A program made the translations under genes and the position numbers. This document shows, piece after piece, positions 11,970 through 40,717 of a stretch of DNA of 42,824 nucleotides. Below the pieces are notes generated by a model. That model saw only the letters and a program-made list of their open reading frames with translations. It searched no databases and was not told the DNA's origin. This DNA comes from Omnitrophica bacterium GWA2_41_15 (lineage in GTDB: Bacteria > Omnitrophota > Gorgyraeia > Ghiorseimicrobiales > Ghiorseimicrobiaceae). The stretch is taken from contig CAKKQO010000035.1 of NCBI GenBank assembly GCA_919902105.1, positions 24,723 to 67,546 on the forward strand. Direction: 5' to 3'. Position 1 is the first letter of the stretch, and each line of letters begins with the position of its first letter.

Positions 11970-12650
11970 ATGAACAAACATAGCAAACGTTTTAATGAGG
12001 CATTAAAACTAGTAGACGAAAAGAAAACATACACTCTTGAGGAAGCTATTGGTGTTTTAAAAAAGACACCCGTGACAAAGTTTGATCAATCTATAGATAT
12101 AGATATACATTTAAACGTTGATTCGAAAAAGTCAGATCAGATGGTGCGCGGAACAGTGGTTCTGCCTGCGGGGACCGGTAAAAAGATGCGTGTGGCAGTA
12201 TTTTGTAAAGGCGAGATAGAAAAAGAAGCAAAAGCAGCTGGTGCCGATTACGTTGGCGGGCAGGACTTAATCGATAAAGTTGCCGCAGGCTGGATGGATT
12301 TTGATGTAGCGGTTGCCAGCCCTGATATAATGAAAGAATTAAGCAAATTAGGCAAGATTTTAGGCCCGCGCGGACTAATGCCTTCTCCCAAGAGCGGCAC
12401 TGTAACGAATAATGTAGCGCAGGCAATAAAAGAGATTAAGGGCGGGAAAATCGAGTTTAAGGTGGATAAACAGGGAGGGATGCATTCTGCAATAGGTAAG
12501 CTTTCTTTTTCAGAAAAAGATATTTATGAAAATGCCTCTAAGTTTATCGAAAGTTTAAATGCGGCAAGGCCCCAGTCGATAAAAGGAAAATTTGTTCAGT
12601 CTGCATCTATTTCTACGACAATGGGGCCGGGTTTAAAAATAGACATCTAA
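11970..12650 (+). CDS. rplA: 50S ribosomal protein L1
   Basis: L1 stalk protein guiding deacylated tRNA out of the E site; in many bacteria it also represses its own operon. The 226-residue product has the two-domain L1 fold, with GTVVLPAGTGKKMRVAVF, the hallmark KLGKILGPRGLMPSPKSGTV (about 126-145) and the C-terminal SISTTMGPGLKID. The stop codon TAA is also the first three bases of a GGATAG-type repeat. Confidence 0.97.
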   Translation: MNKHSKRFNEALKLVDEKKTYTLEEAIGVLKKTPVTKFDQSIDIDIHLNVDSKKSDQMVRGTVVLPAGTGKKMRVAVFCKGEIEKEAKAAGADYVGGQDLIDKVAAGWMDFDVAVASPDIMKELSKLGKILGPRGLMPSPKSGTVTNNVAQAIKEIKGGKIEFKVDKQGGMHSAIGKLSFSEKDIYENASKFIESLNAARPQSIKGKFVQSASISTTMGPGLKIDI

Positions 12651-12738
12651 TCCTACAAGGATAGGCCATCCTAATTCCTTTACCCACTAGGGTAGACTTT
12701 CTACTCCTTTGAAAGAAAGGTCTAAAGGATGGGCCTAA
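12648..12738 (+). repeat. GGATAG-type hairpin element, rplA-rplJ gap
   Basis: It starts at the rplA stop as TAATCCTACAAGGATAG. AGGCCATCC then pairs with GGATGGGCCT near 12726-12736 (one-base bulge), with two smaller hairpins inside. The AGGAT near the rplJ start lies in the 3' arm and would be hidden when folded. Relatives occur at 32574 and 37801. This gap is where L10 leader control sits in other bacteria; no recognisable L10 site was found. Confidence 0.75.
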
Positions 12739-12742
12739 TGCC

Positions 12743-13276
12743 ATGGAAAGAATCGGGAAAGTTTACAGAAGCACCATAGAGAAAGATTTTAAAGAGAAGC
12801 TATCCTCAACAACAAATAGTTTATTTGTAGTCAAATACTCAGGCCTAAAGGCGCCGGAATTGGCGGAATTCAGGAATAATTTATCTCGCCTAAAAAGCAA
12901 GGTTTTTGTAGCTAAGAATTCATTAGTCAGGCGGGCCTTAAAAGAGGCGCAATTAGAGGATTTAATTAGCCTAGTAGAAGGGCAGGCGGCAGTAATTTTT
13001 GCTTATGATGACCCGCTCTCAATATGCAAGGCTATTTCCGCCTTTAGTAAGGGACATACAGCGCTGGAATTTGCCGGCGGCATTTTAGAAAAGCGCTTGG
13101 TTAATAAAAACGACCTCGCATCCTTGGTTAATATACCTTCAAAAGACGAGTTGCGGGCAAAGTTAGTTTTCTGCATGAAGGCAGGGATAAATAATTTTGT
13201 GTTTATTTTAAGCGGGATTTTAAGAAAGCCGCTAAATGTTTTAAATGCCATAAAGAATAAGAAAGAAGGTAAATGA
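12743..13276 (+). CDS. rplJ: 50S ribosomal protein L10
   Basis: Base of the ribosomal stalk, which carries L7/L12 dimers. The 177-residue product has the L10 N-terminal domain (FVVKYSGLKAPELAEFRNNLS, KVFVAKNSLVRRALKE, GQAAVIFAYDDP) and a C-terminal helical tail for L7/L12. The start at 12743 is supported by the MERIGKVYRSTIEKDF opening; only AGGATGGG at some distance could serve as Shine-Dalgarno. The stop TGA lies inside the left end of the next repeat. Confidence 0.95.
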   Translation: MERIGKVYRSTIEKDFKEKLSSTTNSLFVVKYSGLKAPELAEFRNNLSRLKSKVFVAKNSLVRRALKEAQLEDLISLVEGQAAVIFAYDDPLSICKAISAFSKGHTALEFAGGILEKRLVNKNDLASLVNIPSKDELRAKLVFCMKAGINNFVFILSGILRKPLNVLNAIKNKKEGK

Positions 13277-16800: not shown

Positions 16801-17299
16801 AGGCATTAAGGTGTGTGGTCCGGTATTCGACGGTGTTAGCGAGGCCGAGATAAGAGAAATGATGAGAAATGCTGGTCTTCCTGAAGGAGGCAAGATTAAC
16901 TTGCGCGATGGGCATACTGGTGAATCTTTTGATCAAAAAGTCACCGTGGGTTTTATCTATATGATGAAGCTCATCCATTTAGTAGATGAGAAAATACACG
17001 CTCGCTCCATCGGGCCATATTCTTTAGTAACCCAACAGCCTTTAGGCGGAAAAGCCCAATTCGGCGGACAGCGCTTCGGCGAAATGGAAGTCTGGGCGCT
17101 TGAGGCGTATGGCGCCGCTTTTACTTTGCAGGAGATGCTGACGGTAAAAAGCGATGATGTTAAAGGCAGGACTAATATTTATGAGGCAATCGTAAAGGGA
17201 GAACAACGGCTGCATACGGGAATCCCTGAATCGTTCAATGTTTTGATTAAGGAACTGCAAGGGTTATGTTTAGACATTAAGACAGAAAAGGTAAAATAA
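13895..17299 (+). CDS. rpoB: RNA polymerase beta subunit
   Basis: Catalytic-core subunit of RNA polymerase. The 1134-residue product is compact next to 1342 in E. coli, so lineage-specific insertions are absent. It starts [17 protein letters not shown]. The rifampicin pocket (about 15017-15115) reads [19 protein letters not shown] then [13 protein letters not shown], keeping the Asp, His and Ser that mutate in resistance; Ile replaces the Asn at E. coli 518. Further motifs are [26 protein letters not shown] and [20 protein letters not shown] near the end. AAGGGAAT precedes ATG. The TAA stop opens the next hairpin element. Confidence 0.98.
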
Positions 17300-17446
17300 G
17301 TGAAGACATAATTTACGTCTGCGTACGCAGACGTAAATTATAAGTCTGAACTTACCCCGCCGCATTCTTGCAGAATGCAAGAGGCGGGGTTAATTCGCGC
17401 AAATAACTTACTCACACTTCGTGTTCGTAAGTTATGCGCTCATTAA
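17297..17446 (+). repeat. Complete three-hairpin composite element, rpoB-rpoC gap
   Basis: Left hairpin 17297-17354 (TAAGT/ACTTA, GA/GA, AGAC/GTCT, bulge AA, then ATAATTTACGTCTGCG paired throughout). Central hairpin 17355-17389 (CCCCGCC/GGCGGGG). Right hairpin 17390-17446 (TTAAT/ATTAA, TC/TC, GCGC/GCGC, bulge AA, ATAACTTAC/GTAAGTTAT). The three abut with no spacer. The rpoB stop is the first triplet and the rpoC ATG follows one base after the last. Confidence 0.92.
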
Positions 17447-17447
17447 A

Positions 17448-20400
17448 ATGATAGACGACGTTATTTCTTTTAATAGTATTTCTATAAAGATAGCTTCGCC
17501 GCAGACGATTAAGTCTTGGTCAAGAGGAGAAGTGAGGAAGGCTGAGACCATCAATTACAGAACGCTAAAGCCTGAGAAGGACGGTTTATTCTGTGAGAAG
17601 ATTTTTGGCCCGGTGCGCGACTGGGAGTGCAATTGCGGTAAGTATAAAGGTATTAAACATAAAGGAACGGTCTGCGATAGATGCGGTGTTGAGATTACCA
17701 AATCGCAGGTTCGGCGTGAACGCATGGGCCATATCGAATTAGCTTGTGTCGTTACGCACATCTGGTTTTTTAAGGTTGTGCCCAGCCGTTTTACCGCTCT
17801 CTTAGATATGACTCTGCGTGATATAGAGAAAGTTATCTATTACGAAGAATACGTAGTGCTTGATCCCGGCGAATCTCCCTTAAAGAAAAAAGAATTGCTT
17901 TCCGAAGAAAAATACCGGGAGGCTCTGGAAAAATACGGTGCAACATTTCGCGCAAAAATCGGCGCAGAGGCAATCAGGGATTTGTTAAAAGAGGTAGATT
18001 TAAATGCCTTATCCCGTAAGGTTTCTAAAACGCTAGAAGAGAATAAAGACAGCGCTAGTGCCCTCAAGACCAGCAAGACCCTAAAAATTATTGAAGACCT
18101 TAAGAATTCCGGTAATAAGCCGGAATATATGATTGTTGAGGTGCTTCCGGTAATTCCGCCGGATTTAAGACCGCTAGTCCCGCTTGATGGCGGAAGGTTC
18201 GCCACCAGCGATTTAAATGATTTATACCGCCGAGTGATTAACCGCAATAACCGTTTAAAGAAATTAATCGAACTCAACGCCCCGGATATTATCATTAGGA
18301 ATGAGAAGCGCATGCTGCAGGAGGCGGTAGATGCGCTTTTAGATAATGGAAGACATGGCAGACCTGTGCCGGGAGCAAATAATCGGCCGCTGAAATCTCT
18401 TTCCGATATGTTAAAAGGCAAACAGGGAAGGTTCCGCCAAAATTTATTAGGTAAACGCGTAGATTATTCGGGGCGTTCGGTAATTGTAGTCGGCCCGGAA
18501 TTAGCTTTGCATCAGTGCGGCCTTCCCAAGCGAATGGCATTAGAATTGTTTGAACCGTTTATTATTAAGAAACTACGCGAAAAAGGGTTTGTGCATACGA
18601 TAAAAGGCGCCCGACGTATGGTTGAGCGCGGCAAGATTGAAGTTTGGGATATTTTAGATGAAGTGATTAAGGACCATCCGGTGCTCCTAAACCGCGCGCC
18701 AACACTGCACCGCCTGAGTATTCAAGCCTTTTTTCCTGTGCTTATTGAAGGCAAAGCGATTAAGATACATCCTTTAGTCTGCACTGCTTTTAATGCCGAT
18801 TTCGACGGCGACCAGATGGCAGTACACCTACCGCTTTCTTTAGAGAGCCAGGTGGAATGCCGCGTCCTCATGCTTTCCATAAATAATATATTTTCCCCTG
18901 CCGATGGACGCCCGATATTAACCCCTACCCAAGATATTATTTTAGGCATTGCATATTTAACTAAGGAAAAAGCTGGTTCGCTTGGTGAAGGTAAGATATT
19001 CTCAGAGCCACAAGAGGCGGTAATTGCTTATAATGATAAGGCAATAGATTTACACGCCAAAATCAAGGTAAGAATCCCTATCATTTTCGACATATCCGAG
19101 TACAAGGTGATTAAGGAAACAAAGCTAATTGAAACTACTGTGGGGCGGGTATTTTTTAATAACTGCCTGCCGGCTGAGTTTGGCTTTGTTAATGAGGCCT
19201 TAGTCAAGAAAAATGTAGGTGAAGTTGTTGCGGCCTGCTATAAACGGTTCGGCCACAGCCGCACGATAAAATTACTTGATGATTTAAAAAGACTGGGATT
19301 TGAATTTGCTACTATTTCCGGGCTCTCAATTTCCGTGGATGATTTAAAGATCCCTAAACAAAAGGATGAAGTATTAGCTGACGCTCGCGCAGAGGTGGCT
19401 AAGGTCGAAGATCAATATCGCAAAGGTGTCATTACTTACCGCGAACGTTACAATAAAATAATTGATATCTGGACGCATGCGACAGACCGCGTTTCCGATT
19501 TAGTATTTAAGGGAATGGATACTTTTAATCCGATATTTATGATGGCAGATTCTGGAGCGCGCGGCTCCCGCCTGCAGATTAGGCAATTGGCCGGTATGCG
19601 CGGCTTAATGGCTAAGCCGTCGGGTGAAATTATTGAAAGCCCGATCACAGCAAACTTTAGAGAAGGTTTGACTGTTTTGGAATATTTTATTTCAACGCAC
19701 GGTGCGCGTAAGGGTTTGGCTGATACTGCACTTAAGACTGCCGACGCCGGTTACTTAACCCGTCGTCTCGTTGATGTGGCTCAAGAGGTGATTATCAACG
19801 AGTATGACTGTAGCACCTTAAACGGTATTACTATCAGCGCAATTATTGAAGGTGATGAAGTAGTGGTCAGCCTTAAGGACCGTATTATCGGAAGAATTGC
19901 TTTAGATAATATCGTGGATATTATAACTGACGAAGTCGTGGTGGAGGCAGGCGAGGAAATTACAGAAGAAAAAGCGGATATGATTGAGCGTTTAGGCATT
20001 GAAAAGATCCGCATCAGGAGCGTTTTAACCTGCGAAACACCTCGCGGCGTATGTATTAAATGTTACGGCCGGAATTTAGCTACCGGTAGGTTAGTTGAAC
20101 CGGGCGAGGCAATTGGGATTATTGCTGCGCAGTCGATAGGAGAACCCGGAACACAGTTGACCATGAGAACTTTCCATATCGGAGGCACGGCCAGCCGCGT
20201 AGTTGAGCAGTCATACCTTAAAGCAAAGAATAAGGGTATCCTAAAATATCATAATTTAAAGACTGTAGATATGGGCAAGGAGTTCGTGGTTTTAAATAGA
20301 AACGGAGCAATCAGTATTAATGACGAGCAGGGCAGGGAATTTGAGCGCTATACTGTGCCTCAGGGCGCCTTTATTTATGTTGATAATGAAAAAACTGTTG

Positions 20401-21507: not shown

Positions 21508-21879
21508 ATGCCGACGATAGCGCAATTAATTAGGAAAGGTAGAATATTAAAGAAAAAGAAATCTAAGTCTCCGGCATTAAAAGGCTGTCCGCAAAGGCGC
21601 GGCGTATGTGTTCAGGTGAGAACCATGACTCCGAAAAAGCCCAATTCAGCGTTGCGAAAAATTGCCAGAGTCAGGCTTACTACAGGGATAGAAGTTACGG
21701 CTTATATCCCCGGCGAGGGACATAACCTGCAGGAGCATTCGATAGTTTTAGTCAGAGGCGGAAGAGTTAAGGATTTGCCGGGTGTACGTTATCATATTGT
21801 ACGCGGAACACTAGATACCGCAGGGGTTGCTAACAGAAAACGAAGCCGTTCTAAGTACGGAGCAAAGGTAGGTAAGTGA
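21508..21879 (+). CDS. rpsL: 30S ribosomal protein S12
   Basis: Decoding-centre protein. At 123 residues it starts [12 protein letters not shown] and has [11 protein letters not shown] and [27 protein letters not shown]. The lysines whose mutation gives streptomycin resistance are wild type in both loops. It follows rpoC after 10 bases with AAGGA upstream. The stop TGA overlaps the GA of the next element's internal loop. Confidence 0.98.
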
Positions 21880-22111
21880 GTGCACAATTTATGGGATCCG
21901 CCGTAGGCGGAGACATAAATTGTATGCACGAACTTACCCAGCACTAATTTGAAAAAACACTTTGAATCTACTAATAAAAGGGTAAATTTCATTAAAACCT
22001 ATAAATATATAACTCCAACACTAATTACAAATTAGTGCTGGGTTAATTCGCAGACGGCCTTACGGCCTACGACTTAGCGTCGTTGTACTCCGCAAGTCGT
22101 CTGCTCATTAA
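21873..22111 (+). repeat. Complete three-hairpin composite element, rpsL-rpsG gap
   Basis: Left hairpin 21873-21936 (TAAGT/ACTTA, GA/GA, GTGC/GCAC, bulge AT, ACAATTTATG/CATAAATTGT). The central stem ACCCAGCACTAATTT (21936-21950) pairs perfectly with 22029-22043 around a loop of about 78 A/T-rich bases. Right hairpin 22043-22111 (TTAAT/ATTAA, TC/TC, GCAG/CTGC, then ACGACTT/AAGTCGT); its usual 2-base bulge is enlarged to about 15 bases. The rpsG ATG follows one base later. This is the longest gap in the ribosomal block and nothing else is seen in it. Confidence 0.9.
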
Positions 22112-22112
22112 A

Positions 22113-22583
22113 ATGAGAAGAAGAGCGAGAAAAAAAAGAGAAATAACAGCGGATGCAAAGTTTAACAGTAAAATAGTGGCTAAATTCATAAATATACTTA
22201 TGAAAAAAGGCAAGAAGTCTCTTGCCGAGAATATGGTCTATGATGCTTTGGAGAAATTGAAAGCCAAGACTAATGAACCGGATGCTTTAAAAATATTTTA
22301 TAAGGCCTTGGATAATGTGCGCCCTCGCTTGGAGGTAAAGCCGCGCAGGGTTGGCGGTGCAACATACCAGGTGCCGCAAGAGGTAAAACAGGACAGAGGT
22401 GTTTCGATTGCGCTGCGCTGGCTCAGGGATTTTGCCCGCGCGCGTAAGGGAAAGCCGATGCTCGAGAAGTTAACAGAGGAGATTTTTGCCGCCTATAAAG
22501 GCGAAGGCTCTTGTATTAAGAAAAGAGATGATACGCATAAGATGGCTGAGGCAAACAAGGCCTTTGCCCACTTTAGGTGGTAA
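22113..22583 (+). CDS. rpsG: 30S ribosomal protein S7
   Basis: Primary 16S rRNA binder of the 30S head, near the E site. 156 residues starting MRRRARKKREI, with GKKSLAENMVYDAL, RPRLEVKPRRVGGATYQVP, and the end KMAEANKAFAHFRW. I chose ATG 22113; an upstream in-frame TTG would read the hairpin. There is no adjacent Shine-Dalgarno (GCTGGG lies before the right hairpin). The TAA stop begins another element. Confidence 0.96.
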   Translation: MRRRARKKREITADAKFNSKIVAKFINILMKKGKKSLAENMVYDALEKLKAKTNEPDALKIFYKALDNVRPRLEVKPRRVGGATYQVPQEVKQDRGVSIALRWLRDFARARKGKPMLEKLTEEIFAAYKGEGSCIKKRDDTHKMAEANKAFAHFRW

Positions 22584-26096: not shown

Positions 26097-26207
26097 CTCC
26101 TCGCCTAAACACCGCAAAAATCTCAGCGATATTTTTGCGGTAGGCTTCGGAGTCAATTCGCACAGTGATTTATGAGCGCTTCGCTCTATAAATCACGTGC
26201 TCATTGA
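26097..26207 (+). repeat. Composite hairpin element, tuf-rpsJ gap (central + right)
   Basis: Central hairpin: CTCC (26097-26100) with GGAG (26149-26152), GCCT with AGGC, ACCGCAAAAAT with ATTTTTGCGGT. Right hairpin 26153-26207: TCAAT/ATTGA (both sides changed relative to TTAAT/ATTAA), TC/TC, GCAC/GTGC, one-base bulge, GTGATTTAT/ATAAATCAC. The rpsJ ATG follows with no gap and has no adjacent Shine-Dalgarno; GGAG lies directly before the hairpin. Confidence 0.9.
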
Positions 26208-26507
26208 ATGCAAAAAATACGGATAAAACTAAAGGCATATGACCATAGGTTATTGGATCAGTCTATCCAGGAGATAGTTGAGACTGCGAAGCGTACGGGT
26301 GCCAGGGTTTCAGGCCCGGTACCTCTTCCGACGAAAAAAGAGGTATATACAGTCTTGCGTTCTCCGTTTATTGACAAAAAGTCTAGAGAACAATTCGGAT
26401 TGTATACGCATATGCGCCTTGTGGAGTTGGTGGAACCAACAGCTAAAACCATTGATGCTCTGCGCAGGTTAAACCTGCCTGCGGGTGTAGCAGTGGAAAT
26501 AAAGTAA
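26208..26507 (+). CDS. rpsJ: 30S ribosomal protein S10 (NusE)
   Basis: 30S head protein and transcription antitermination partner of NusG/NusB. 99 residues: [53 protein letters not shown], the typical S10 sequence. It opens the S10 block. The start codon abuts the right hairpin of the preceding element, and its own TAA opens the next element, so the gene is bracketed by repeats on both sides. Confidence 0.97.
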
Positions 26508-26655
26508 AGCGAGGACATGACTTACGGAATCCGCCGTAGGCGGAGACGTAAGCCATAAGTCCGAACTTATCCTTGACATCTTTGATGTCAAGGATTAATT
26601 CCGACAGATAATTTACCTCAGGCATTTTGCCTTCCGTAAATTATGTCGTCATTAA
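26505..26655 (+). repeat. Complete three-hairpin composite element, rpsJ-rplC gap
   Basis: Left hairpin 26505-26569 (GA/GA, GGAC/GTCC, bulge AA, ATGACTTACG/CGTAAGCCAT with one mismatch; the outer 5 bp are partly decayed). Central ATCCTTGACAT/ATGTCAAGGAT (26569-26595). Right 26595-26655 (TTAAT/ATTAA, TC/TC, CGAC/GTCG, bulge AG, ATAATTTAC/GTAAATTAT). The left loop shares GATCCGCCGTAGGCGGAGA-like sequence with the rpsL-rpsG copy. AGGA (26591-26594) precedes the right hairpin; rplC ATG is one base after it. Confidence 0.9.
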
Positions 26656-26656
26656 T

Positions 26657-27268
26657 ATGATAGGTCTGTTAGGAAAAAAAATTGGGATGACTCATAAATT
26701 CAGCGAGGATGGTAAGTTTATCCCCGTCAGCGTCCTGGAAGCAGGGCCATGTTTTGTTTTGCAGTCTAAAGATAAGAGTTTACAGCTTGCTTTTGATAAG
26801 GTTAACCCTAGAAAGGTAACGCGTCCTTTGGCAGGATTATTTAAGAAAGCCGGCGTTGAACCGCATGCTTTTATTAAGGAGATCAAGGTGGATAATGCCA
26901 AGGACTATAAGCCCGGCCAGGAGCTAAAGGTAGATGTTTTCAAAGAAGGGGATTTTGTGGATGTCTCTGGTATTTCAATAGGTAAGGGTTTTTGCGGCGG
27001 TATGAAGCGCTGGCATTGGGCAGGCGGGCCGAAGACTCACGGTCATACTTCACATCGCAGGGTTGGTTCTATTGGTTCCAGCACATCTCCCGGCCGTGTC
27101 TTTAGAGGCCACCATATGCCGGGGCATATGGGTAATAGAGCAGTTACCACGCAGAATCTTAAAGTTATAAAAATTGATAGCACGAATAACCTTTTGGTGG
27201 TAAAAGGCGCGGTTAGCGGAGCGAAGAATGGTTATTTAATCATCCGGAAAGCAAAAAAGAAAAAATAG
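26657..27268 (+). CDS. rplC: 50S ribosomal protein L3
   Basis: Early-assembly protein whose loop approaches the peptidyl-transferase centre. About 203 residues starting MIGLLGKKIGMTHKF; the loop region has GMKRWHWAGGPKTHGHTSHR and SPGRVFRGHHMPGHMG. I chose ATG 26657 over an in-frame TTG 30 bases earlier inside the hairpin. There is no adjacent Shine-Dalgarno. It is followed by rplD after 47 plain bases. Confidence 0.96.
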   Translation: MIGLLGKKIGMTHKFSEDGKFIPVSVLEAGPCFVLQSKDKSLQLAFDKVNPRKVTRPLAGLFKKAGVEPHAFIKEIKVDNAKDYKPGQELKVDVFKEGDFVDVSGISIGKGFCGGMKRWHWAGGPKTHGHTSHRRVGSIGSSTSPGRVFRGHHMPGHMGNRAVTTQNLKVIKIDSTNNLLVVKGAVSGAKNGYLIIRKAKKKK

Positions 27269-31602: not shown

Positions 31603-31714
31603 CTCCTTGCCTAATCACCGCAAAAATCTCTTTGATATTTTTGCGGTAGGCTTCGGAGTTAATTCGCACCTATAAGTTACGTCGCTAACGCTCCGTAACT
31701 TATGTGCTCATTAA
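31603..31714 (+). repeat. Composite hairpin element, rpsQ-rplN gap (central + right)
   Basis: Central: CTCC (31603-31606) with GGAG (31655-31658), GCCT/AGGC, ACCGCAAAAAT/ATTTTTGCGGT, almost identical to the tuf-rpsJ copy. Right 31659-31714: TTAAT/ATTAA, TC/TC, GCAC/GTGC, bulge CT, ATAAGTTACG/CGTAACTTAT. The rplN ATG is one base later without a local Shine-Dalgarno; GGAG touches the base of the hairpin. Confidence 0.92.
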
Positions 31715-31715
31715 A

Positions 31716-32084
31716 ATGATACAGGTTAGAAGCATATTAGACGTGGCAGATAACACCGGAGCAAAGAAGGCCTCTTATATAAATGTTTTAGGGAGAAAAA
31801 ATCAGCTTACTGCATGTATTGGCGATGTTGTAGTAGTGAATATCAAGGAGTCTAGCCCCGATGCATCAGTGAAAAAAGGTGAAGTCAGTAAAGCAGTGGT
31901 GGTTAGGACAAAGGCACCTATTCGTAGAAGCGATGGTTCAGTGCTAAGGTTTGACCGTAATGCCGTAGTGCTTATCGATAATCAGCTAAATCCTAAAGGT
32001 AGCCGTGTTTTTGGGCCAGTAGCAAGGGAATTACGCGATAAGAATTTTATGAAAATAATTTCCCTTGCACCGGAGGTTGTGTAG
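31716..32084 (+). CDS. rplN: 50S ribosomal protein L14
   Basis: Subunit-interface protein. 122 residues: [78 protein letters not shown] 31716 gives the canonical N-terminus; an in-frame GTG 12 bases earlier lies in the hairpin. The stop TAG is the start of the next repeat. Confidence 0.97.
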
Positions 32085-32200
32085 TGCACTGTCAAATTAA
32101 TTTTTGATAAACAGCGCACAGAGCAATTGAACAATAGACAATAGAACAATAGACAAACAAAAGCTCAATTGCGGTCTATTTTCGATTGTTCTATTGTTCA
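32082..32200 (+). repeat. TAG-TGC repeat, rplN-rplX gap (copy 1)
   Basis: Starts on the rplN stop. GTGCACTGT pairs with ACAGCGCAC (32084-32119). It is followed by GAGCAATTGAACAATAGAC and several CAATAGAC-like direct repeats, with two competing pairings: GCAATTGA with TCAATTGC, or GAACAATAG (32129-32137) with CTATTGTTC (32192-32200). Same order of parts as at 33365-33480. Confidence 0.8.
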
Positions 32201-32243: not shown

Positions 32244-32576
32244 ATGTTAAAAATAAGAAAAGGCGATACAGTATTTGTAATAGCTGGTAAAGATAAAGGA
32301 AAAACCGGCAAGGTGATTAGGGTTTTCTTAAAACAAAGCCGTGCTTTAGTAGAAGGTATTAATCGCGTGAAGAAAGCAATGCGCAGAACGAGCCAAGACC
32401 AAAAAGGCGGAATTATCGAACTAGAGCTGCCTATACATATTTCTAATTTAGAAGTTTTCTGTAAAACTTGTGGTAAGCCTGCGCGCGTCGGAATAAAGAT
32501 GCAGGAGAATTTGGCTGTGGCAAAAAAGGCCAAGAGTAAAGTAAGATTTTGCAAACGCTGTAAAGAGGTTGTGTAA
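32244..32576 (+). CDS. rplX: 50S ribosomal protein L24
   Basis: Assembly initiator of the 50S subunit, near the tunnel exit. 110 residues with a KOW motif (KGDTVFVIAGKDKGKTGKVIRV), HISNLEVFCKTCGKP and a final CKRC. The four cysteines (73, 76, 103, 106) make a probable zinc site seen in many L24. ACAGGA is upstream. The stop TAA is part of a GGATAG-type repeat. Confidence 0.96.
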   Translation: MLKIRKGDTVFVIAGKDKGKTGKVIRVFLKQSRALVEGINRVKKAMRRTSQDQKGGIIELELPIHISNLEVFCKTCGKPARVGIKMQENLAVAKKAKSKVRFCKRCKEVV

Positions 32577-32620
32577 TCCCACAGGGATAGACCTTACTAA
32601 TTCCTTTGAAGGAAGGGTCT
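32574..32620 (+). repeat. GGATAG-type hairpin element, rplX-rplE gap
   Basis: TAATCCCACAGGGATAG begins on the rplX stop; AGACC pairs with GGTCT, and TTCC with GGAA inside. The GGAAGG in the 3' arm is the rplE Shine-Dalgarno, so the element both ends one gene and can mask the ribosome-binding site of the next. Relatives at 12648 and 37801. Confidence 0.75.
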
Positions 32621-32621
32621 T

Positions 32622-33176
32622 ATGGAAAAGAAAAAAACACCTAGACTTAAAGAAAAATACATTAACGAAATAATACCGGCAATGATGAAGGAATTTGGGT
32701 ATAAAAATAAGATGCAGGTGCCGCGCCTGGTAAAAATTGTAGTTAATATGGGTGTAGGCGAGGCAATAACTGACATTAAAATTATGGATAAGGCGCAAGA
32801 GGAATTAGCAGCTATTACGGGACAGCATCCGGTGCTCTGCCGGGCGAAGAAGGCAATCTCTAATTTTAAAATAAGAGAAGGCCAGCCTATAGGCTGTAAA
32901 GTAACCTTGAGGCGTAATATTATGTATGAGTTTCTGGATAGGTTTATGAATATAGCATTGCCCCGCATTAGGGATTTTAGAGGAGTATCGAATAAATCGT
33001 TTGATGAAAATGGCAGTTATAATTTGGGAATAAGAGAGCAGACTATTTTTCCCGAGATTGAATATGATAGAATCCCGCGCCTGCAGGGAATGAATATTAC
33101 TATTATTAGTAATAGCAAAACCGTAAAGGAATCTTTGGGTTTTCTTAGGCTGTTAGGCATGCCGTTTCAACAATAA
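32622..33176 (+). CDS. rplE: 50S ribosomal protein L5
   Basis: Binds 5S rRNA and contacts P-site tRNA. 184 residues: [100 protein letters not shown] upstream lies in a hairpin. rpsZ follows after 5 bases. Confidence 0.97.
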
Positions 33177-33181
33177 CAAAT

Positions 33182-33367
33182 ATGGCAAAAAAATCACAGA
33201 TTGCAAGATGTAAAAGGACAGCGAAGTTTGGCTCAAGGAAATATAATCGTTGTCCCATATGCGGTAGGTCAGGCGGATATCTGCGTAGGTTTCAGCTCTG
33301 CAGGATTTGTTTTAGAGAATTGGCATGGCGCGGGGAAATCCCAGGTGTAAAAAAAGCAAGTTGGTAG
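33182..33367 (+). CDS. rpsZ: 30S ribosomal protein S14, zinc-binding type Z
   Basis: 61-residue short S14 with Cys24, Cys27, Cys40 and Cys43 in the CPIC..CRIC pattern of the zinc form, and the end [18 protein letters not shown]. No clear Shine-Dalgarno; probably coupled to rplE. The stop TAG starts the second TAG-TGC repeat. Confidence 0.96.
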
Positions 33368-33480
33368 TGCGCTGTCTATTAAGAATTTATTTGACAGCGC
33401 ACAGAGCAATTGAGCAATAGACAATAGATAATAGACAAGCGAAAATTCAATTGCGTTCTATTTTCTCTTGTTCAAAAACT
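33365..33480 (+). repeat. TAG-TGC repeat, rpsZ-rpsH gap (copy 2)
   Basis: GTGCGCTGTC pairs perfectly with GACAGCGCAC (33367-33402); the first G belongs to the rpsZ stop codon. Then GAGCAATTGAGCAATAGAC, repeated AATAGACAA units and TCAATTGCG, as in the 32082 copy. The stem is closed by G-C where the other copy has A opposite G, so this is the better preserved copy. Confidence 0.82.
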
Positions 33481-37162: not shown

Positions 37163-37834
37163 ATGCGGATTATTTTATTGGGGCCTCCGGGTGCCGGCAA
37201 GGGCACACAGGCAAAGCTGCTTAAAGAGAATTTTAATCTGGCGCATATTTCTACCGGGGATTTATTACGCAAGGCCGTAGCAGATAATACAATTATAGGA
37301 AAGACTGTAAAAAGTTATATGGATAAGGGCAATCTTGTTCCGGATAATTTAGTGATAGAGTTGTTAAAGGAACGCTTATCTCTCCAAGATATAAACTGCG
37401 GCTTTATCCTCGATGGTTTCCCCCGCAACGTTGCCCAGGCTCAAGTTTTAGATAAGGTTTTTAGAGATAGGAACCTGAATATAGATTATGTTATTTATTT
37501 AAAGGCTGATGCGCCGGTGATAATTCAGCGGCTTTCTGGCCGGCGCGTATGCTCAAAGTGCCAGGCAAATTTTCATATTACTAATATGCCGCCCAAAAAA
37601 GAGGGCATATGCGATAACTGCGGGAGTCACCTTTATCAACGTAATGATGATAAAGTCGAAGCGATAAAAAACAGGCTTAAGGTTTATTTAAAAGAAACAG
37701 CGAGTTTAATTGGTTATTATCTTAAGCAGAATAAATTGTTTGAAATGGACGCTAATTTTCCAGCGCCGCTTGTATTTGAAAAAATAAAAAACGTTTTTTC
37801 TAATCCTACAAGGATAGTCCTTCCTGATCCTTAA
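37163..37834 (+). CDS. adk: Adenylate kinase (long form, zinc LID) with repeat-encoded tail
   Basis: Interconverts ATP + AMP and 2 ADP. 223 residues: P-loop GPPGAGKGT (7-15), STGDLLR, DGFPRN, RLSGRRVC. The LID domain has four cysteines (130, 133, 150, 153) typical of zinc-bearing long adenylate kinases. Five bases after secY, the usual order. The last ten residues (NPTRIVLPDP) are read from a GGATAG-type repeat; at two other sites the same repeat supplies a stop codon immediately, here it is in another frame. Confidence 0.96.
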   Translation: MRIILLGPPGAGKGTQAKLLKENFNLAHISTGDLLRKAVADNTIIGKTVKSYMDKGNLVPDNLVIELLKERLSLQDINCGFILDGFPRNVAQAQVLDKVFRDRNLNIDYVIYLKADAPVIIQRLSGRRVCSKCQANFHITNMPPKKEGICDNCGSHLYQRNDDKVEAIKNRLKVYLKETASLIGYYLKQNKLFEMDANFPAPLVFEKIKNVFSNPTRIVLPDP

Positions 37835-37847
37835 AAGGAAGGGACTA
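37801..37847 (+). repeat. GGATAG-type hairpin element overlapping adk end and map leader
   Basis: TAATCCTACAAGGATAG then TAGTCC/GGACTA and TTCCT/AGGAA pairing. The 5' half is translated as the Adk tail. The 3' arm contains GGAAGGG, the map Shine-Dalgarno. Its first 17 bases are identical to those of the 12648 copy. Confidence 0.82.
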
Positions 37848-37852
37848 AATAG

Positions 37853-38602
37853 ATGGTAGCAATGCGGACCGAAGAAGAGATTGCCCAAATCAGGCATGCC
37901 GGTCATATCTTGGCAAGGGTATTTGCGAAGCTCAAGAATAAGATAATCTGCGGCATTAGCACACAGGAGCTCGATGACTATATCAAATCTTTGGTTGAAG
38001 AGCATGGCGGTCTTTGCGCATTCTTAGGTTATCGCGCGTATCCTGCAAATAGTTGTATCTCGCTAAATGAGGAAGTGGTTCACGGTATCCCCTCTTTAAA
38101 AAAGCTCTTAAAAGTTGGCGATATTGTCAGCGTTGATATAGGAGTAAAGTTTGGCAGTTGGTTTGCAGATGCAGCGGTTAGTTATCCGGTAGGTAACATA
38201 GAGACGAGCCGCAAAAAACTGATTGATGTAACTAAGAAAGCCTTAGATTTAGGGATAAGAGAGGCCTACGCCGGTAATTTTTTATCCAATATTTCTTATA
38301 GTATCCAGCGTTATGCGGAGTCTTTTGGTTTTTCGGTGGTACGCGATTTAGCAGGCCATGGCATAGGTAAAAATATTCATGAGGAGCCCGAGATCCCCAA
38401 TTACGGAAGGCTCGATTGCGGTATCACGCTAAAAAAGGGGATGGTTTTGGCAATTGAACCTATGGTGAATATGGGCGGTTGGGAGGTAGAGGTATTACCC
38501 GACGGATGGACGGTAGTAACAAAAGACAGGCTTCCTTCTGCGCATTTCGAGCATACAATCGCCATTACGGATAATGGGCCGGAGATTTTAACACGGCTAT
38601 AA
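37853..38602 (+). CDS. map: Methionine aminopeptidase, type I
   Basis: Removes the initiator methionine from new proteins. 249 residues. Metal ligands are visible: Asp95 (VDIG), Asp106 (FADAA), His169 (LAGHGIG), Glu202 (AIEPM) and Glu233 (FEHT), plus His78 and His176 of the substrate pocket. It follows adk, a standard spc-region order. The ATG at 37853 fits GGAAGGG spacing; ATG 37862 is an alternative. Confidence 0.97.
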
Positions 38603-40593: not shown

Positions 40594-40612
40594 TAATATT
40601 AATTGAAACTTG

Positions 40613-40704
40613 TTCCGCCTCAAACCCCGCAAAATGCGGGGCGGCGGAATTAATTCGCACTTATAAGTTACATCATTTCATTCTGTAACTTATGTGCTCA
40701 TTAA
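40613..40704 (+). repeat. Composite hairpin element, rpsD-rpoA gap (central + right)
   Basis: Central TTCCGCC/GGCGGAA (40613-40649) with inner CCCCGCA/TGCGGGG. Right 40650-40704: TTAAT/ATTAA, TC/TC, GCAC/GTGC, bulge TT, ATAAGTTAC/GTAACTTAT. Here no Shine-Dalgarno precedes the right hairpin, and the gene has its own AAGGAG after it. Confidence 0.9.
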
Positions 40705-40717
40705 GGAGCGAGGGAAA

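Follow-up and report, generated by a model that had tools for sequence, protein, structure and literature searches.

A short repeat in the genome of Omnitrophica bacterium GWA2_41_15 meets its neighboring genes in two ways: at rplA and rplX it provides the stop codon, and at adk translation runs on into it and lengthens the protein. What kind of sequence is this repeat, and are the stop codons and the protein tail functions of it or by-products of the way in which it arrived? Here, we answer these questions from the window, i.e. the whole stretch of 42,824 nt of DNA that was analyzed, together with related genomes. The genomes compared are draft assemblies, and genes outside the window were called in this analysis.

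Copies of the repeat at three gene junctions

A covariance model built from 10 copies of the repeat, read together with reading frames and relatives, gives the following features in the window:

12648..12738, forward strand: composite copy at the rplA/rplJ junction (covariance model), with the right TAA of the outer element at 12736-12738; its sequence TAATCCTACA starts at 12648
12680..12725, forward strand: second element of the rplA/rplJ composite, placed within the loop of hairpin 2 of the outer one (covariance model)
32574..32622, forward strand: copy at the rplX/rplE junction with TAA/TTA ends (covariance model and relatives without the element); its sequence TAATCCCACA starts at 32574
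37163..37834, forward strand: adk, the last 10 residues of which, NPTRIVLPDP, and the stop codon are read from the element (reading frame, relatives)
37801..37848, forward strand: copy at the adk/map junction, with a net insertion of 45 nt (covariance model)

The two simple copies, at adk and rplX, score 69 bits with an E-value of ~1e-16; both belong to the training set, and scores for copies of the source genome are inflated because some of these copies trained the model. Among independent copies in other genomes, the highest score is 74 bits. The 10-mer of the initial annotation (TAATCCYACA) alone, with at most one mismatch, gave 10 matches versus 5.4 expected, which is not clearly above chance, as 5 of 100 shuffles reach 10; a 14-mer searched with the same tolerance in the whole genome gave 14 matches versus 1 for the reversed control.

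As the initial annotation had it, the TAA of the copy at 12648 is the stop codon of rplA (reading frame 11970-12650) and that of the copy at 32574 is the stop codon of rplX (32244-32576). At the rplX/rplE junction, the right TTA in addition provides the A (at 32622) of the rplE ATG (TTA + TG) and, thus, the element also contributes to a start codon.

The C-terminal tail of Adk

The end of adk reads TCT AAT CCT ACA AGG ATA GTC CTT CCT GAT CCT TAA through the element; its first TAA is out of frame here, and translation halts at an internal TAA after the ten extra residues, as had been described. In two genomes of the same family without the element (G002 and G003), Adk ends KKVLL* and KSVLL*, respectively, at the insertion point, and the tail is absent from all readable Adk sequences of more distant genomes of the class. 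The same-genus genome G001 has a decayed copy (23 bits) at the same adk site, and its tail has drifted to NSTKISLPGAFKERA, which is longer than the tail in the source genome. Because the decayed copy occupies the same site, the adk insertion is older than the split between the source species and the G001 species. The proposal had been that the tail is a by-product of insertion and that Adk C-termini of relatives lacking the repeat should be compared, with the same tail in such relatives as the observation against it; the opposite was seen. Thus, the comparison supports that the Adk tail is a translated repeat and the element an insertion. If the tail were instead an ancestral or selected C-terminal extension with only a secondary resemblance to the repeat, it would be natural that it stays open in two species; however, the tailless relatives, the 69-bit match of this DNA to a dispersed repeat, and the drifted and longer tail in G001 make this explanation barely credible.

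Architecture of the element

The full element has the form TWA-[~42 nt]-TWA (W, A or T), i.e. a 48-nt unit with two dissimilar hairpins, and its net insertion of 45 nt consists of the ~42 nt with the two hairpins plus one TWA triplet. The order of its parts is hairpin 1 (YCC..GGR), TAG, hairpin 2 (NCCWTCC..GGAWGG with a bulged G and N') and CTWA. In the adk copy, these are the left TAA (37801-37803), hairpin 1 (ATCCT-ACA-AGGAT), TAG, hairpin 2 (TCCTTCCT..AGGAAGGGA) and CTAA with the right TAA (37846-37848). The start of this copy at 37801 stands as initially annotated, while its end moves from 37847 to 37848 with TWA at both ends.

The hairpins are conserved as pairings. In 43 copies from other genomes that were aligned to the model, none of them used to build it, 95% of the base-pair cells are standard, and two-sided changes number 37 versus 8.6 after shuffling and 1-5 with the pairing slid. 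N and N' form a Watson-Crick pair in 141 copies and a G-T pair in 2, which suggests pairing as DNA rather than as RNA. Among 161 copies, hairpin 2 is preceded by ATAG in 101 and by GTAG in 51; the first of these four bases is part of hairpin 1, and the TAG pairs with CTA. Copies at two loci (L033 and L227) have TAC..GTA (L033) or TAT..ATA in place of TAG..CTA, and because this compensatory change keeps the pairing, TAG/CTA is part of the stem.

Distribution and mobility

The covariance model places the element at ~30 sites in the source genome. Among relatives, copies number up to 99 in G023, 81 in G006 and 48 in G003, and 27 of 237 genomes of the phylum have at least one. The distribution is patchy, with 0-99 copies among related genomes and none in many close relatives; at both rplX/rplE and rplA/rplJ, the element is absent in all three relatives G001-G003. 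Copies occur in either orientation, within protein-coding sequence and within other copies. The nested composite of rplA/rplJ is present as one unit at three other places in the genome (four loci in total), another nested copy lies at C82, and tandem copies, head-to-tail where seen, share a single TWA. Because copies are nested, tandem and patchy, we regard the element, on comparison of sequences, as mobile. At L109 (G000 contig C2, ~1110-1445), at least four tandem and nested copies lie near a stretch of N, an indication that the assembly breaks at arrays of the element. Viral contigs contained no exact match to a 25-base consensus.

These observations bear on whether the repeat is, rather, a native RNA element of ribosomal-protein operons, such as a terminator or a processing or translational-coupling hairpin, that overlaps stop codons by chance. 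The starts of rplE, map and rplJ (32608-32625, 37834-37855 and 12726-12745, respectively) are closely preceded by the 3' arm of hairpin 2, which is rich in purines (GGAAGGG/GGATGGG) and similar to a Shine-Dalgarno sequence enclosed in a hairpin. A role in RNA would account for this position and for the presence of all three window copies between probably co-transcribed genes. Nevertheless, we consider it very improbable: it is contradicted by the empty rplX and rplA sites in relatives, and the placement of copies in either orientation, within proteins and within one another, as well as the scarcity of G-T at N/N', argue against it. In addition, an Rfam scan of the window yielded only two tRNAs at gathering thresholds and no family for the element.

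Target site

Copies are flanked by TWA on both sides. In the pooled genomes, the two end triplets are equal (TAA/TAA or TTA/TTA) in 73 copies and mixed in 20 (Fisher p=1.4e-8). A W carried by the element, as in a guide-type specificity, was rejected, as a nearest-neighbor test for W shared by the most alike copies gave no signal. Because W matches at both ends and is unrelated to the copy's own sequence, it belongs to the site, and TWA has the appearance of a target-site duplication. Of 122 isolated copies, 100 have C or T immediately before the left TWA versus 56% in the window (p ~1e-9), with A nearly excluded, and the preferred target is, thus, YTWA. In mixed genomes, about one-fifth of the copies have unequal W, e.g. 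the rplX copy with TAA/TTA, and part of this fifth is one composite counted four times. The unequal ends exceed what mutation would easily yield, and a duplication model is incomplete in this respect. An IS200-like scheme in which the right triplet is owned by the element would explain the unequal ends but not the correlation of W.

Unequal ends and tandem arrays would also fit a spread of copies by template switching or gene conversion at short homologies without a dedicated transposase, as would the fact that none of the enzyme searches described below named a mobilizer. By contrast, the sharp ends of nearly all copies, the fixed YTWA target and the precise 45-nt in-frame insertions point to site-specific cutting, and we find this route improbable.

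Gene ends and reading frames

In the source genome, a terminal triplet of the element is used as a stop codon (TAA from TWA, or TAG from the complement of CTAA) at 7 of ~18 scorable sites versus 11% of tolerated TWA sites (p=0.002), a modest excess that depends on the gene calls from this analysis and is weaker for the five strict TAA cases. G023 and G056 show little or no such effect. An MreD-like protein of the source genome also ends in element-coded residues. Therefore, the initial suggestion of insertion at gene ends holds as a frequent outcome, but not as a rule, given the YTWA target, the copies inside reading frames and the copy inside a hairpin loop. Gene ends are favored, as TAA itself fits TWA and whatever follows a stop codon is dispensable. 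Thus, gene ends are not the target as such, TAA stop codons being TWA sites at which insertion is tolerated, and there is no need to assume a separate preference for stop codons.

Twelve copies are located entirely within reading frames, most of them in core genes, and all 12 add 45 nt (15 residues), compared with 38 of 71 among the remaining copies of these genomes (p=0.001). The hosts include:

source genome: prs and a small conserved gene
G003: lpxC-fabZ, prmC, the 5-formyltetrahydrofolate cyclo-ligase gene, kdtA and smc
G023: cobT, a clamp-loader delta'-like gene and others

Host names were read from the sequences, and PDB matches confirm prs, lpxC, cobT, 5-FCL and prmC. Homologues of solved structure have a gap of ~14-15 residues at or beside the element. 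The Prs orthologues in G001-G003 lack exactly those 15 residues, the prs site being empty in these three relatives, and in an AlphaFold model of Prs from four sequences (pLDDT 65, i.e. mediocre) the insert lies in a low-confidence loop between two strands. The peptides spanning the inserts are ASNPARIDHPIPLKDGSK in Prs and VFSNPTR in Adk. Inserts are read in several frames and from either strand; selection therefore does not favor one particular peptide, and what is constrained is length together with freedom from stop codons. Intragenic copies make up only 12 of 83 although ~87% of TWA sites are coding and, therefore, most intragenic insertions were presumably removed by selection.

We suggest, with a probability of roughly 85%, that we are dealing with a mobile DNA element, very small and non-autonomous, that inserts at YTWA and is left with TWA on both sides, and that stop codons and protein tails are by-products. 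In this model, a transposase acting in trans would recognize the folded single-stranded DNA of the element, as suggested by the Watson-Crick covariation of the hairpins and by the conserved bulged G. The strong correlation of the flanks is consistent with insertion at YTWA that leaves TWA on either side. Insertions that break genes would be purged by selection, and three kinds of survivors would remain. Those on or near stop codons would supply the stop codon, with TWA giving TAA and CTA giving TAG; those at gene ends may let translation enter the element and halt at an internal stop codon, as in Adk and the MreD-like protein; and those within genes would be stop-free inserts of exactly 45 nt, as in Prs, LpxC, PrmC, CobT and others. 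Stop codons and tails would, in other words, reflect target sequence and selection and not functions of the element.

Candidate mobilizing enzymes

The transposase of this model could differ in how it cuts. In an IS200/IS605- or REP-type mechanism, a Y1 HUH transposase would cut single-stranded DNA after a short site without duplicating the target; the cut site would stay in the target on the left and be owned by the element on the right, and hairpin 2, with (A/G)TAG before and CT after it, would be the recognition hairpin. In TnpA-REP systems, GTAG is thought to be a guide, with cleavage at CT (PMC8266576), and the TAG and CT around hairpin 2 resemble these motifs; unequal ends, as in the rplX copy, also fit. 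Y1 genes are present in 48 of 59 relatives and, in a tree of 46 Y1 proteins, one clade is almost confined to element-bearing genomes, albeit in a biased sample. However, in an unbiased search, genomes where no element was found also proved to have close Y1 homologues (77-78% identity), and the genome with the most copies lacks the over-represented clade. Moreover, none of 20 Y1 regions in element-bearing genomes has an element within ~1 kb of the transposase gene, the tag is mostly ATAG, and equal W at both ends, unrelated to the element sequence, is unexpected without duplication. On balance, a Y1 HUH mechanism is a distinct possibility, but not the one we favor.

The Y1 loci searched did not include an autonomous parent, i.e. 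a tnpA element with the same ends, and Y1 genes of element-rich genomes have no copy next to them, an IS605 in G052 being the exception. In that genome, two IS605-like transposon copies (L102 and L103) each have one copy of the element next to the left end and a second, in-frame copy close to where tnpB ends. This IS605 was rejected as the parent, as its own end hairpin appears different, and the copies inserted as passengers.

Relation to known repeats

TIR-type MITEs with a TA duplication, such as RUP and Correia, are non-autonomous, have a short A/T target duplication and carry terminal inverted repeats. The element shares the first two properties, but it has only internal hairpins and no terminal inverted repeats (left end TCC... 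versus right-end complement GNCCC...). To IS200/IS605 miniature elements and TnpA-REP systems (PMC8266576), it is linked by subterminal hairpins with a bulged base, short motifs resembling cleavage sites and CT by the right hairpin. Unlike the IS200/IS605 miniature elements, it has neither a remnant of an autonomous element nor an adjacent transposase gene, and its TWA flanks are correlated as in a duplication.

According to Di Nocera et al. (2013, PMC3733652), the termini of REPs often provide a TAG stop codon, and a number of REPs are located within ORFs. Only some RAYT genes are GTAG-flanked. The element and GTAG REPs have in common a hairpin after TAG, the supply of stop codons, copies in ORFs and a dispersed, patchy and clustered distribution. 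By contrast, a GTAG REP is one hairpin with an unpaired GTAG tag and occurs mostly in head-head dimers, whereas the element has two hairpins in fixed order, a TAG that is paired with CTA and is preceded more commonly by A than by G, tandems that run head-to-tail, and TWA flanking both ends. The Rickettsia palindromic elements (RPE; Ogata et al. 2000, 2002), which are ~150 bp long and lie in frame in genes, are the classic case as far as the account in PMC10969869 goes. Similar to RPE, the element is short palindromic selfish DNA, with many families or copies, that lies in frame in unrelated core genes; however, compared to RPE as described, it has only 45 nt, two dissimilar hairpins, TWA at both ends and a host in another phylum.

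Because stop codon supply and in-frame insertion have been described for REPs (PMC3733652) and RPE (PMC10969869), the behavior of the element is therefore of an already known kind. As far as our searches reached, its architecture, size, TWA flanks and host are undescribed in the literature searched, in which nothing relevant on such an element in Omnitrophota was found, and we do not claim membership in REP or RPE. We think it rather unlikely that the element represents a minimal class of mobile DNA distinct from REP, IS200/IS605 and TIR elements, defined by two unlike hairpins that lack terminal inverted repeats, YTWA targets with TWA duplication and stop-free 45-nt inserts that persist in essential genes. 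Protein-coding palindromic elements are chiefly known from Rickettsia and, if unrelated, a family about three times shorter in a distant uncultured phylum would mean that mobile DNA adding 15 residues to core enzymes arose more than once. The genes prs, adk and lpxC provide clean presence/absence pairs for testing the tolerance of enzymes to inserts, and the copy-number contrast over 237 related genomes makes the search for the mobilizing enzyme tractable by genomics.

Other repeats in the window

A second, unrelated repeat is present at 32081-32145 and 33364-33428 and starts with GTAG, after which comes a strong hairpin (TGCGCTGTC..GACAGCGCA). The TAG serves rplN (31704-32084) and a small ORF (33182-33367), respectively, as stop codon, a use as described for GTAG REPs (PMC3733652). 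Further dispersed inverted-repeat families of 25-80 nt, including CGTAAGTTATG..., CCGAACTTACCC... and GCCGTAGGCGG..., are intergenic in the window and lie at 361-427, 17296-17453, 21874-22118, 26097-26662, 31603-31721, 40610-40711 and other positions.
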